In this document: positions 10,334 through 41,966 of the stretch, piece by piece | Numbering within the stretch: position 1 is the stretch's first letter | How the letters are laid out: every line of letters starts with the position of its first letter | Assembly: GCF_001641085.1 (NCBI RefSeq) | Contig: NZ_LXIE01000045.1 | Span: 62,001 to 126,000, forward strand | DNA length: 64,000 bases | Reading direction: 5' to 3' | Source: Aequorivita soesokkakensis | Lineage (GTDB): Bacteria > Bacteroidota > Bacteroidia > Flavobacteriales > Flavobacteriaceae | Notes under the pieces: generated by a model | The model's database searches: none | What the model was told of the DNA's origin: nothing | The model's input: only the letters and a program-made list of their open reading frames with translations | Made by a program: the position numbers and the translations under genes

Positions 10334-11191
10334 ATGATCCAATCCATGACGGGCTACGGCAAAGAAGTTGTTCAGTTGCCATCGAAAACCATTACCATTG
10401 AAATCAAATCGTTAAACAGCAAAGGGCTTGACCTGAACACACGTGTGCCTTCTGCCTATCGTGAAAAGGAACTTGAAATTCGCGATTTGCTTGCAAAATC
10501 ATTGCAAAGAGGAAAAGTTGATTTTTCGCTTTACATTGAAGTTACGGGCGAAGAAGTTACAACCCAGCTTAACGAAAGCGTTGTAAAACAATATATGAAA
10601 CAGCTTTCAAATGTGGTAAATGGCGACCCCGTAGAGCTTTTAAAAATGGCGGTGCGCATGCCAGATGCCTTGAAAACCGAACGGGAGGAAATTGACGAAA
10701 CGGAGTATGCAGCAATTTTAAAAGGAATAGACCAAGGCTTGGAAGCCATCAATAAATACAGAACCGACGAAGGTTTGGTACTGGAAAATGACTTTTTGGA
10801 ACGCTCCAAAACCATTTCAAAATTGCTGGATGATGTTATTGCTTTAGATCCCGAAAGGATTGATGGCGTAAAGGAAAGACTTCGCAAAGCAGTGGCAGAT
10901 TTAAAGGAAAAGGTTGACGAAAACCGTTTTGAGCAGGAATTGATTTATTACCTCGAAAAATACGACATCACCGAAGAAAAGGTTCGTCTTAAAAATCATT
11001 TGGATTATTTTGAACAATCGCTGAATTCACACGATTCAAACGGAAAAAAATTGGGTTTCATCACACAGGAAATTGGTCGTGAAATCAACACCATTGGCAG
11101 CAAGGCAAACTATGCGCCAATGCAGCAAGTAGTGGTGCAAATGAAGGACGAGCTTGAAAAAATTAAGGAACAAGCTTTAAACGTTTTATAG
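10334..11191 (+). CDS. yicC: YicC/YloC-family endoribonuclease
   Basis: This 285-residue protein has the usual YicC length. The N-terminal MIQSMTGYGK and SLNSKGLDLNTRVP are the YicC_N signature, and the C-terminal DUF1732 part has DITEEKVRLKNHLDYF and GREINTIGSKANY. The family has been shown to be an endoribonuclease (YicC in E. coli, YloC in B. subtilis) affecting small RNA and mRNA turnover. The stop TAG is directly followed by the gmk ATG with no spacer, a gene pair conserved in many bacteria. Confidence 0.95.
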   Translation: MIQSMTGYGKEVVQLPSKTITIEIKSLNSKGLDLNTRVPSAYREKELEIRDLLAKSLQRGKVDFSLYIEVTGEEVTTQLNESVVKQYMKQLSNVVNGDPVELLKMAVRMPDALKTEREEIDETEYAAILKGIDQGLEAINKYRTDEGLVLENDFLERSKTISKLLDDVIALDPERIDGVKERLRKAVADLKEKVDENRFEQELIYYLEKYDITEEKVRLKNHLDYFEQSLNSHDSNGKKLGFITQEIGREINTIGSKANYAPMQQVVVQMKDELEKIKEQALNVL

Positions 11192-38705: not shown

Positions 38706-39314
38706 ATGTCTTTCGAATTACCAAAATTACCGTATGCATTTGATGCTTTGGAACCGAACATCGACGCAAAAACGATGGAAATACACCACGACAAGCACCA
38801 CCAAGGTTATACCAACAATTTGAACGATGCCATTAAAGGCACCGACATGGAAGGTAAAACCATTGAAAATATTCTGACCAATCTTGATATGGAAAATAAA
38901 GCCGTCCGTAATAATGGTGGCGGATTTTATAACCACAGCCTTTTTTGGAAAGTAATGTCTCCAAATGGCGGCGGAAAACCTTCGGGTGAACTTGCAGAAG
39001 CTATTAATAGTGCCTTTGGAAGTTTTGAGGATTTTAAAGAAAAATTTTCCACCGCTGCTAAAACGCAGTTTGGCTCTGGTTGGGCTTGGCTTTGCGTACA
39101 CAAAGGTGGAAAAGTTGAAATTTGTGCCACGCCAAACCAAGATAATCCATTGATGCCAAAAGTTGGTTGCGGTGGAACTCCAATTTTAGGATTGGATGTT
39201 TGGGAGCACGCATATTATTTGAAATATCAAAACAAACGCCCCGATTATGTTGGTGCATTTTGGAATGTAATTAACTGGGAAGAAGTTTCTGCTAATTACG
39301 CAAAGAACAAATAA
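38706..39314 (+). CDS. sodA: Superoxide dismutase [Mn/Fe]
   Basis: This 202-residue enzyme dismutates superoxide in the cytoplasm. The metal ligands are His27 ([11 protein letters not shown]), His77 (FYNHSLFW), Asp164 and His168 ([15 protein letters not shown]). The active-site glutamine is in PNQDNPLM (residue 145) and glycines precede His77, the manganese-type arrangement; Fe or cambialistic use cannot be excluded. No signal peptide is present. It is monocistronic with its own -7 box and terminator. Confidence 0.96.
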
Positions 39315-39341
39315 GGTTTAAATCAGATAACTGAAATTATG

Positions 39342-39376
39342 AATCCGCAGGTATAACTATGCCTGCGGATTTTTTA
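39342..39376 (+). terminator. Intrinsic terminator of sodA
   Basis: Arms AATCCGCAGG and CCTGCGGATT pair perfectly over 10 bp with a 10-nt loop, followed by a T run. It separates sodA from the gene-free repeat region. Confidence 0.93.
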
Positions 39377-39490
39377 TGCAAAAAAATCAAGTGGGAGAGA
39401 GGAAAATGAAAGGAAAAACTACTCGCAATAAAATTCAGAAAAGAAAATTTATAATTCCGAAGGTTTTCCACCCCGTTCAGATTTGGGCAT

Positions 39491-39566
39491 AAAAAAAGGT
39501 AAACTAGCGTTTACCTTTTTTTGCCCCAAATCTACCATGAACTTAACCTACTTATGCTAATGGTAT
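39491..39566 (-). ncRNA. Predicted 76-nt small RNA, copy A
   Basis: On the minus strand a TATATTTG -7 box (plus 39570-39577) is followed by a hairpin with arms TACCAT (39560-39565) and ATGGTA (39533-39538). Its 21-nt loop contains TAAGTAGGTTAAGT. It ends in a terminator with a perfect 14-bp stem (39491-39504 with 39509-39522, loop GCTA) and T7. An outer stem of TTTGGGGC-type arms encloses the terminator. A very similar molecule of the same length is predicted 391 bp away. No homologous RNA family is recognised from memory. Expression is inferred, not shown. Confidence 0.6.
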
Positions 39567-39569
39567 GTT

Positions 39570-39577
39570 CAAATATA
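39570..39577 (-). promoter_or_regulatory. Putative -7 box of sRNA copy A
   Basis: The minus strand reads TATATTTG, and the same eight bases stand at the same place before copy B. A TTTTG lies about 15 bp upstream, shorter than the usual spacing. Confidence 0.55.
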
Positions 39578-39800
39578 TACCAATAAAGTATTCAAAATTA
39601 TGGTTTTAGATGAATTGCTTATTTTCTCGTTGAAAAACATATTTTATTGTTTTTCAGTCAAAAAATCATTCTTTAATTCCAAATTTTAACATTTAAAATA
39701 TTAGAGTTTATTTGAAGAAGATTTGTTATAAAATTTCTTCATTGAGCTCGAGTCACCCCTGAGAGATTCGTAATTTTAAAAAAGGCAGGCTTTCGTAAAG
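39578..39800. other. AT-rich spacer between the two sRNA repeats, with a third partial copy
   Basis: This spacer has no ORF of note. At 39778-39795 an 18-base stretch (AAAAAAGGCAGGCTTTCG) is identical to 39882-39899 of copy B and then diverges, so it looks like the remnant of a third terminator arm. The rest of 39578-39777 shows no recognisable signal. Confidence 0.6.
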
Positions 39801-39967
39801 GGAAAAACAAAACGGCTCGCAATAAAATTCTAAATAGATTATAGATGTTCCCAAGGCTCGCCACCCCAAATTTGGGGCATGAAAAAAGGCAGGCTTTCGC
39901 CTACCTTTTTTGCCCCAAATCTTACCATAGACCTAACCTACTTACGCCTTATGGTAAGCTCAAATAT
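39801..39967. repeat. Intergenic sRNA repeat, copy B (167 bp)
   Basis: This is the second copy of the unit described at 39412. It preserves the promoter box, both hairpin arms, the loop sequence, the terminator and the conserved CTCGCAATAAAATTC block at its distal end. The two copies differ in many single bases, so duplication is old. Confidence 0.85.
39882..39957 (-). ncRNA. Predicted 76-nt small RNA, copy B
   Basis: The minus strand has TTACCAT (39951-39957) pairing with ATGGTAA (39922-39928) around a loop with GTAAGTAGGTTAGGT. A terminator of GGTAGGC-GAAA-GCCTGCC and T6 follows (39882-39911). Its stem differs from copy A at several positions but still pairs. On the minus strand the one change is a G-U wobble, whereas the plus strand would have a C-A mismatch; this supports minus-strand transcription. 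The outer ATTTGGGGCA/TGCCCCAAAT arms pair perfectly. Confidence 0.6.
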
Positions 39968-39968
39968 A
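39961..39968 (-). promoter_or_regulatory. Putative -7 box of sRNA copy B
   Basis: The minus strand reads TATATTTG four bases before the first hairpin arm, exactly as in copy A. The 99 bp from 39969 to the PurF-type stop at 40068 shows no further signal. Confidence 0.55.
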
Positions 39969-40067
39969 ATTTAAGTTTATACACTAATATAGTGTTAATC
40001 AACAATTTCGATTAAGTGGATTGGGTTTCCGATAAACGGTAAAGGCTGTGTTAAAATTTAAAGACTT

Positions 40068-41966
40068 TTAATAAGCACGTTCTGGATTGCCTTCATAAAA
40101 ATTGATGTAGGCCCTGTTCACAACCCTGTTTCCGCCTGCTGTTGGGTAGTTTCCGGTGAAATACCAATCGCCAAGATTTTTAGGGCATGCTTTGTGAAGA
40201 TCATCAACAGATTGAAAGATAATTTTCACCTTTGCGTTTATGTTTTCGTTGCTTATTATTTCAGAAATTTTATCTGAAATCTCTTCATCAGTAAAAGGAG
40301 CATAAAGCTTTTTAACATGATTAATTACCGAAACATCTTCCATTGTAACTTGCTCCTTACATTTATGGTAGATCTCTTCAACAATTCCATAGGTTCCGCG
40401 ATCTTTATGAAGTTCCAAAGCTGCTTGAAAAGCCACTAAATGCTCTAAACGCGCCATATCAATTCCATAGCAATCCGGATAACGAATTTGAGGGGCTGAA
40501 GAAACTACAACAATCTGTTTTGGATGAAGCCTATCCAGCATTTTCAATATACTCTTTTTCAAAGTAGTTCCGCGAACGATGCTATCGTCAATAATAACCA
40601 AATTGTCATCTGGTTTTACAACGCCGTATGTAACGTCATAAACGTGTGCTACCAGATCATCTCGACTACTATCGTCTGTAATAAACGTTCTAAGTTTTAC
40701 GTCTTTTATTGCAATTTTCTCCGTGCGGATTTTATGCGCTTGTATTTGCTGAAGTCTTTCGGGAGTCAAGCTTTCCTTTTCTTTCAGGATTGCCTCATTT
40801 TTCTGTTTGTTGAGCTCGTCTTGAGCCGCTTCCAGCATTCCGTAAAAAGAAGTTTCGGCAGTATTCGGTATAAAAGAGAAAACTGAATTTTCCGTATCAA
40901 AATCGATTGCCTTTAAAATTTTCGGCATTATCAATTTTCCGAGCATTTTTCGCTCTTGATAGATTTCCGCATCACTTCCGCGGGAAAAATAAATTCTTTC
41001 AAAAGAACAGGATCTTCGCTCTAAAGGAGCAAGTATTTCCGAAAGTTTCTTGCTCCCGTCTTTCTTTATAATAAGGGCATGTCCAGGATCTAATTCTTTC
41101 ACTTCCTCAAAAGGAACGTTGAAAACGGTTTGGATTGCAGGTCTTTCCGAAGCAACCACAATCACCTCATCATCTTGATAAAAATATGCGGGACGAATTC
41201 CTGCCGGATCTCGCAACACAAATGAGTCTCCGTGGCCCAAAAGACCGGCCATGGCGTAACCTCCGTCCCAATTTGCGGCAGATTTCCGAAGTATTTTCGC
41301 CAAATTAAGGTGTTCTGCAATAAAGGGTGATGCCTCTTGTTTGGTCATTCCTTTTGCCTTTGCCTTTTTATAGAGTTTTCGAACCGCATCATCTAAAAAA
41401 TGGCCAATTTTTTCCATAACCGTTACGGTATCGGCCTTCTCTTTAGGGTGCATTCCGAGTTTTATGAGGTTGTCAAAAAGCTCGTTGGTATTGGTCATAT
41501 TGAAATTCCCCGCAATTATAAGATTACGGTGCATCCAATTGTTTTGACGCAGAAAAGGATGGACGTTTTCAACGCTATTTATTCCGAAAGTACCGTAACG
41601 AACATGACCGAGGAATAATTCACCTATATATGGAATGTTTTTTTTCTGTGCTGCAACATCGTCTTTATATTCTGGATGCTGAGAAAATTCAAGATTTATA
41701 CGTTCGTTTATTTGTGCAAAAATATCCTGAATAGGTTGCGCGGCATTGGAGCGAACACGACTTATATAGCGCTCTCCTGGATTTACGTCCAATTTAATGC
41801 TGGCAAAACCGGCACCGTCCTGTCCACGGTTGTGCTGTTTCTCCATCATTAAATACATTTTGTTTACACCGTAAAAAGCGGTTCCGTATTTTTCCTTGTA
41901 ATATTCCAAGGGCTTCAACAGTCTTACCAGTGCAATTCCACATTCGTGTTTTAACGCGTCGCTCAT
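40068..41966 (-). CDS. Long-form amidophosphoribosyltransferase-like protein (PurF family)
   Basis: This 632-residue protein has a class II glutamine amidotransferase domain followed by a phosphoribosyltransferase domain. The nucleophile cysteine is Cys9 in KHECGIALVRL, so eight residues must be removed, as the propeptide is in Bacillus PurF. KQHNRGQDGAGFASI and HVRYGTFG are glutaminase signatures. LVIIDDSIVRGTT is the PRPP-binding motif (about residue 460). It is over 100 residues longer than ordinary PurF. Bacteroidota often carry both forms, so whether this one makes phosphoribosylamine is unproven. A terminator precedes it. Confidence 0.85.
   Translation of the reverse strand: MSDALKHECGIALVRLLKPLEYYKEKYGTAFYGVNKMYLMMEKQHNRGQDGAGFASIKLDVNPGERYISRVRSNAAQPIQDIFAQINERINLEFSQHPEYKDDVAAQKKNIPYIGELFLGHVRYGTFGINSVENVHPFLRQNNWMHRNLIIAGNFNMTNTNELFDNLIKLGMHPKEKADTVTVMEKIGHFLDDAVRKLYKKAKAKGMTKQEASPFIAEHLNLAKILRKSAANWDGGYAMAGLLGHGDSFVLRDPAGIRPAYFYQDDEVIVVASERPAIQTVFNVPFEEVKELDPGHALIIKKDGSKKLSEILAPLERRSCSFERIYFSRGSDAEIYQERKMLGKLIMPKILKAIDFDTENSVFSFIPNTAETSFYGMLEAAQDELNKQKNEAILKEKESLTPERLQQIQAHKIRTEKIAIKDVKLRTFITDDSSRDDLVAHVYDVTYGVVKPDDNLVIIDDSIVRGTTLKKSILKMLDRLHPKQIVVVSSAPQIRYPDCYGIDMARLEHLVAFQAALELHKDRGTYGIVEEIYHKCKEQVTMEDVSVINHVKKLYAPFTDEEISDKISEIISNENINAKVKIIFQSVDDLHKACPKNLGDWYFTGNYPTAGGNRVVNRAYINFYEGNPERAY

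Follow-up and report, generated by a model that had tools for sequence, protein, structure and literature searches.

A candidate family of often repeated small RNAs between PurF-type and superoxide dismutase genes in the Flavobacteriaceae

Two repeated units in the gap between two convergent genes

The window analysed here is a stretch of 64,000 nucleotides from Aequorivita soesokkakensis (contig NZ_LXIE01000045.1, positions 62,001 to 126,000 of the forward strand). A superoxide dismutase gene and a PurF-type gene converge in this window on a gap of 753 bp (Table 1). It is the longest gap without an ATG-started ORF of at least 100 aa, the next longest being 498 bp (at the window edge) and 466 bp, and the original prediction had likewise singled it out as the only large gene-free one. 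The label sodA is taken over from that prediction, and the product scores under the NCBIfam cut-offs for both the Mn type and the Fe type of the enzyme. For the gene on the other side (below, purF), "PurF-type" is the safe name, since its product scores 125.7 bits against TIGR01134 (purF), under the cut-off of 350; no Pfam match was found for this protein at E <= 1e-10.

Within positions 39412-39968, the gap contains a pair of direct repeats, 76 nt long and diverged to 75% identity, with their starts 390 nt apart. On the minus strand, each repeat reads as the Bacteroidota-type promoter box TATATTTG, a TACCAT/ATGGTA hairpin (hairpin 1), a linker containing GATTTGGGGC and an intrinsic terminator. 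The array occurs once in the genome. The two units, named copy A and copy B, are those for which a duplicated small-RNA (sRNA) locus with this order of elements had been proposed, and both the units and their setting recur in relatives, as described below. Their ends are predicted, having been placed by a covariance model; the length of 76 nt originally given for both RNAs stands for copy A, and that of copy B becomes 77 nt.

Table 1. Genes and predicted features of the locus, numbered from the first nucleotide of the window
Feature	Position	Strand	Remarks
sodA (superoxide dismutase gene)	38706-39314	plus	iron/manganese superoxide dismutase by Pfam
Gap with both units	39315-40067		753 bp, between the PurF-type gene and the superoxide dismutase gene
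Terminator-like hairpin of the superoxide dismutase gene	39342-39371		followed by a T-run
Degraded post-terminator element after copy A	39415..39475	minus	from comparison with relatives
sRNA copy A	39492..39567	minus	predicted 76 nt; model R1 95.1 bits, E 2.6e-15
Copy A intrinsic terminator	39491..39522	minus	GGTAAAC/GTTTACC and T-run
Copy A linker GAUUUGGGGC	39523..39532	minus	single-stranded, unpaired in fold; identical in 19 genus copies
Copy A hairpin 1	39533..39565	minus	UACCAU-AGC-UAA-[GUAGG]-UUA-GUU-AUGGUA
Copy A -7 box TATATTTG	39570..39577	minus	
Copy A upstream half-site TTCATCTAAAA	39604..39614	minus	TCTAAAA starts 33 nt before the -7 box
Copy A second upstream half-site TTCAACGAGAAAA	39622..39634	minus	20 bp further out
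Repeated-terminator remnant 3' of copy B	39778..39795	minus	direct repeat, 100% identical to 39882-39899
Post-terminator element after copy B	39810..39867	minus	GGGGTGGCGAGC-N36-GCGAGCCGTTT
sRNA copy B	39882..39958	minus	predicted 77 nt; model R1 99.5 bits, E 3.4e-16
Copy B intrinsic terminator	39882..39911	minus	GGTAGGC/GCCTGCC
Copy B linker GAUUUGGGGC	39912..39921	minus	first base may close the copy B stem
Copy B hairpin 1	39921..39958	minus	outer stem CUUACCAUA/UAUGGUAAG
Copy B -7 box TATATTTG	39961..39968	minus	
PurF-type gene (purF)	40068-41966	minus	divergent 632-aa protein

The terminator of copy A has 14-nt arms with a complementarity of 100%. The predicted folds of 75 nt on the minus strand are more stable than those of shuffled sequences (z of -2.9 for copy A and -5.1 for copy B, the latter with a fold energy of -32 kcal/mol). 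The values for the plus strand are -2.7 and -2.6, and for copy A, with -2.9 against -2.7, the test therefore hardly separates the strands. Wobble pairs provide another indication of the strand. Among 24 distinct sequences from the genus, the pair at columns 12/28 is G-U in 23 and the pair at columns 56/71 is U-G in nine; neither would pair on the plus strand, which argues for a minus-strand RNA, as the original prediction had done from a G-U pair.

Homology between the repeats extends beyond the terminators into a post-terminator element of the form GGGGTGGCGAGC-N33..38-GCGAGCCGTTT, with fixed ends, a very variable middle and one to about three tandem units. The element is present in most genus loci among L004-L021, as well as in L042, L046, L057 and L058, and two genomes (G018 and G023) have two units in swapped order. 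Pairing between its two ends is conceivable, with G-A mismatches in tandem (GGCGAGC/GCGAGCC). This pair of ends was found nowhere else in 464 kb of the genome, and outside the genus it accompanies four of 321 copies (duplicate loci included). A CRISPR-like reading of these arrays was considered and rejected: several loci have their spacer-like segments duplicated along with the flanks, which tandem duplication suffices to explain. A separate observation concerns positions 39870-39880 and their equivalents in relatives, where the DNA immediately 3' of the T-run is often complementary to the linker (TGCCCCAAATCT). An exact complement of at least 7 nt lies within 25 nt in 40 of 287 copies, against 6.1 expected from shuffles, and these copies are largely from Aequorivita; an RNA that reads through the T-run would form a longer hairpin.

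Distribution, synteny and copy number

A DNA search matched 25 of 39 relatives at E <= 0.001. Matches were obtained in 19 of the 23 genomes of the same genus (G001-G023), one of which (G009) is marginal (8.9e-4) and is not the sRNA. The window's genome and 18 genomes of the same genus each have one copy A and one copy B, although in G014 these are on two contigs. With the R2 model, no convincing copy was detected in G001, G002, G007, G009 and G015 (no E better than 0.17), of which G007 is a genome of only 69% completeness. The other four are near-complete genomes without the array. In G001 and G015 (L248, L249), purF and sodA are adjacent, about 100 bp apart, and this clean absence between the flanking genes marks the array as a discrete unit. 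In G009 and G002 (L250, L251), the array is absent and no purF match was found within 1.5 kb of sodA.

The R1 covariance model was built from 24 distinct sequences, derived from 38 genus copies that had been excised by exact core strings. A search with this model, which is free of the exact core pattern, returned matches at E <= 0.01 in 241 of 299 family genomes, in 213 of the 249 of good quality and in 193 of 236 genera. At the same threshold, 58 of the 299 genomes have no match, 36 of them of good quality; loss, gaps or divergence of the copies may account for these. A pattern scan for the exact core detected at least 118 stretches, with Maribacter, Zobellia, Winogradskyella, Flagellimonas, Aquimarina, Kordia, Salinimicrobium and Flavobacterium among the matches listed.

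Searches of wider samples gave strong matches in the Flavobacteriaceae only. In a sample of the class (295 genomes, R1), these were the window's genome and five genomes of genus g142, and in a sample of the order (196 genomes, R2), 26 genomes matched at E <= 2.5e-10, all of them Flavobacteriaceae. A further 17 genomes of the order sample matched at E >= 9.6e-5, and the eight of these that belong to a single family (f11) looked suspicious, which is why ten weak matches from outside the Flavobacteriaceae, four of them from f11, were inspected. Each of the ten proved to be a terminator hairpin that lacks the core, and neither sodA, purF nor their two next neighbours occurs in any of the ten stretches, so these candidates were rejected as homologues. 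Spread by viruses was also considered and rejected; the exact A-type core CATAAGTAGGTTAAGTTYATGGTA, the form that was searched, was not found in viral contigs. The sRNA family is probably ancestral to the Flavobacteriaceae.

For a comparison of gene order, 157 loci with an exact core were taken (150 distinct once loci with an identical copy in common are merged). SodA is present in 123 of them and purF in 138; both genes are found in 109 loci, one in 43 and neither in five (L044, L065, L074, L100 and L127), and many of the stretches end before the neighbour gene. In every one of the 109 two-gene loci (105 distinct), all exact-core copies lie between the genes, co-directional with purF and facing sodA. 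Counting exact cores only, there is one copy in 31 loci, two in 37, three in 19, four in 12, five in eight and six in two. The counts per genome from R1 range from one to eight; among them are some terminator matches on the opposite strand, one of which is the third in the window's own genome (G000). The covariance-model search of Flavobacteriia that had been suggested along with the original prediction has in this way returned paired copies in a syntenic setting, with a terminator that covaries (see below). In loci from Maribacter-like genera (L060-L063, L146 and L153), the copies look position-specialised: the first ends in GGGGCAAAA, the middle ones in GGGGAAAA and the last in GGGACGAAAA, and the last copy also has a differing, TACCAGTAATTTAG-like promoter.

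Strong terminators that always lie between convergent genes, wherever both genes are present, could also represent a cis-acting bidirectional terminator or insulator rather than a trans-acting RNA. This reading is highly improbable. For termination alone, a fixed 30-nt hairpin, a promoter box and an upstream element in each copy would be superfluous, the superoxide dismutase gene already has a terminator-like hairpin of its own, and G001 and G015 manage without the array.

Conservation of hairpin, linker, terminator and promoter

In the alignment of the 24 genus sequences, all 528 pair cells hold standard pairs, and both sides have changed at six of the ten terminator pairs. Within hairpin 1, columns 11/29 are A-U in the 12 copy A sequences and G-C in the 12 copy B sequences. 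A family alignment was made from the best 150 of 182 matches from 87 loci, with the weakest 32 excluded; it comprises 138 distinct rows. In the 150 aligned copies, 97.5% of 3030 cells are paired, and the whole structure exceeds all 500 shuffles on each of five measures. The two helices contribute in different ways. In the terminator helix, both-side changes occur at all ten pairs and 99.3% of cells are paired. Among the distinct rows, hairpin 1 has five invariant pairs out of 12 and a both-side change in only two rows, at one pair, and its outermost pair fails in 54 rows. Given this difference in covariation, the terminator is kept as a structure and hairpin 1 mainly as a sequence.

Column counts over the 150 copies give CCAT-ARCATAAGTAGGTTAAGTTYATGG with few exceptions and a near-invariant hairpin 1, values that are inflated because many loci were fetched by the exact core pattern and the best 150 matches were aligned. 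The consensus of the core is the hairpin CCAUARCAUAAGUAGGUUAAGUUYAUGG followed by a linker that is mostly RGAUUUGGGGC. The 19 genus genomes with the array all share the same A core, from TACCATTAGC to GGGGCAAAAAAAG, although part of it was the search string; in the B core of the genus, a few hairpin bases vary. The expectation that pairing is kept while stems diverge was borne out for the terminator. The accompanying claim that the loop is conserved and the stem is not has to be revised: the "loop" TAAGTAGGTTA folds into a short stem-loop of its own (UAA-GUAGG-UUA), conservation in hairpin 1 is about equal for stem and loop, and it is the terminator stem that diverges and that carries nearly all of the covariation. 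A peptide gene was also considered and is disfavoured, because a one-base difference (GTAGATTT/GTAAGATTT) shifts any reading frame that starts at the core ATG, and this frame is not kept.

A TAnnTT[TCG][GA] box lies 4-8 nt ahead of the hairpin in 232 of 334 distinct copies, family-wide, and the remaining 102 have none that matches this pattern. In F. psychrophilum, the reported sigma-A consensus is TAnnTTTG (PMC9723704). In 117 of the 232 promoters, TC[TGC]A[AT]3 starts 33-37 nt before the box, against 5.1 expected from shuffles, a statistic that ignores the relatedness of the sequences. The 92 promoters aligned on TCTAA, to which the same qualification applies, reveal, some 20 bp farther from the box, a second half-site (TTT.AaC.AAaaaA...G...TT.aTCTAAAA). 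Copy A carries both half-sites; in copy B, as found in this genus, neither is visible. Two like half-sites that lie two helical turns apart suggest one activator, and the bipartite upstream element is probably a site for a shared activator.

Two features of multicopy trans-acting sRNAs are found across the family, namely an independent, predicted promoter box (232 of 334 copies) combined with a paired terminator (99.3% of cells), and a core conserved across species, for which the counts are inflated by exact-pattern fetching. As judged from sequence comparison, a family-wide and often repeated sRNA family is strongly supported, and the predicted RNA is very likely transcribed.

Relation to known RNAs and possible function

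At gathering scores, Rfam 15 has no match at the locus, and the only match in the window is a tRNA. A permissive scan of 801 bases gave 24 weak matches, all under their own cut-offs. These results agree with the original prediction, in which no known RNA family had been recognised, and no description of this RNA was recognised among the open-licence papers listed. The family is apparently uncatalogued and would be new to Rfam 15.

A parallel in layout is FopS/GibS (RF04319) of Bacteroides. Both families are from Bacteroidota, multicopy and short, with an intrinsic terminator, and copy A shares with FopS the motif UUCAUGGU..AGAUUU..GG next to the terminator and in the same order. FopS/GibS is described as multicopy, with bands of about 65 and 70 nt, which is a similar length; FopS is further described as having a single-stranded 5' part with an R1 seed, followed by the terminator, and as binding RbpB, an RRM protein (PMC11697453). 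The array could therefore be a diverged member of that family, and two sub-threshold RF04319 matches do fall on the array in one genome (G068). However, copy A reaches 22.8 bits (E 0.54), far under the gathering score of 56, and none of 41 Flavobacteriaceae genomes has a match over this cut-off. The best RF04319 match in the window's genome, which is also sub-cut-off, is off the array (C33, positions 10620-10692, minus strand; 32.8 bits, E 0.006). Where FopS is single-stranded, the present RNA has hairpin 1, and its copies are confined to one locus. The weak R1 matches outside the Flavobacteriaceae lack the core wherever they were inspected, and an RRM_1 protein (PF00076) resembling RbpB, the sRNA-binding protein that has been studied in Bacteroides, was found in none of ten genus genomes (the window's own and nine others), with a positive Bacteroides control. 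On these grounds, membership in FopS was rejected as very unlikely.

A second candidate relative is Rfp18 of Flavobacterium psychrophilum, which is reported to be needed for the precise expression of two metalloproteases, to be conserved beyond its species, to be strongly folded and to pair via its third stem-loop (PMC9723704). By description, it resembles the present RNA as a conserved, strongly folded flavobacterial sRNA, and Flavobacterium carries the sRNA family (L076, L097 and 17 genomes of g142, a genus that is probably Flavobacterium). The array could then be the same RNA seen family-wide, which would be compatible with either pairing in trans or a decoy function. Rfp18 is described with at least three stem-loops, whereas each copy here has two, so pairing through a third would need a two-copy transcript, which would have four. 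The identity of the two RNAs is a real possibility, although considered unlikely.

Several searches for mRNA partners were conducted. Pairing close to the start codons of susC-like mRNAs is a trait of FopS. In start regions of CarbopepD_reg_2 (PF13715) genes, which are probably of SusC/TonB type, the mean duplex value was -19.5 for copy A and -21.3 for copy B (28 starts from 39 matches; 30 loci were fetched, two without a start). The means for 50 control starts were only slightly weaker, at -18.9 and -20.3, and the strongest single pairs were controls. Across 410 start regions in 464 kb of the window's genome, the energy of the top 20 duplexes did not surpass that of shuffles in strength for any of five segments of the RNA; depending on the segment, 9 to 37 of 40 dinucleotide shuffles reached it. 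Since this sample is about 15% of one genome and the energy models are simple, a few true targets may yet exist. The linker complement GCCCCAAATCV occurs 165 times, compared with 63 for the reversed control (2.6-fold), in 48 of 60 genomes. Of 30 matches inspected, one is at a start, eight are sense within genes, 18 are antisense and three are intergenic; with 18 antisense inside genes, the excess probably reflects codon usage on the opposite strand. For the 10-mer CCTACTTATG, the genome shows no enrichment (six matches, one of which is copy A, against eight for the control).

The lack of an mRNA signal in these tests would also be in keeping with a protein-binding decoy, in which hairpin 1, with its GUAGG pentaloop, and the GAUUUGGGGC linker bind a protein that the copies titrate. 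CsrB and RsmZ titrate CsrA in this manner. The multiplication of copies (one to six per locus) is consistent with such a role, as is a hairpin 1 that is fixed on both sides of its stem, with five of 12 pairs invariant. A fixed hairpin would suit a protein ligand as well as it suits pairing. However, protein sites usually allow covariation of the stem, which in hairpin 1 is limited to two rows at one pair (n=138), and the candidate RRM_1 protein known from Bacteroidota was not found in ten of ten genus genomes. A decoy is thus a tentative and rather doubtful possibility.

The preferred reading is that of a trans-acting regulatory RNA whose core pairs with mRNAs and whose dose is set by copy number, and as a whole it is held with slightly better than even confidence. 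The array would consist of independent, terminator-ended genes for a non-coding regulatory RNA of about 75 nt. Each copy would have its own housekeeping-type TAnnTTTG promoter, many with a bipartite upstream element for an activator, and because the promoters are their own and the activator is shared, copy number would set the dose. The near-invariant core of hairpin and linker would pair with a set of mRNAs and change their translation or stability, and the terminator, which merely has to pair, would be free to drift. A near-invariant hairpin 1 is what one would expect of an RNA whose sequence is put to direct use. Action in trans is likely. Base-pairing is favoured over protein titration on precedent only, because the pairing tests were null. 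An analogy in working, from an unrelated organism, is provided by LhrC1-5 of Listeria monocytogenes, which are described as multicopy sRNAs under a shared regulator, LisR. LhrC pairs through UCCC, unlike the core found here, which is without that motif.

Judged by its conservation, the sRNA is probably a regulator of some importance. A more far-reaching proposal, that it is a core global riboregulator of the Flavobacteriaceae that works without the RRM chaperone of Bacteroides, through a protein or a conserved regulon in most genera, with its dose set by copy number, is speculative, with a chance well short of even. The presence of the array in about four-fifths of family genomes, its near-invariant core and its fixed address nevertheless make it a strong candidate for a core regulator. 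One short probe (to TAACCTACTTATG) and one deletion target would serve many genera, the natural absences within the genus (G001 and G015) offer comparison strains, and the covariance model could serve as the basis of an Rfam family.
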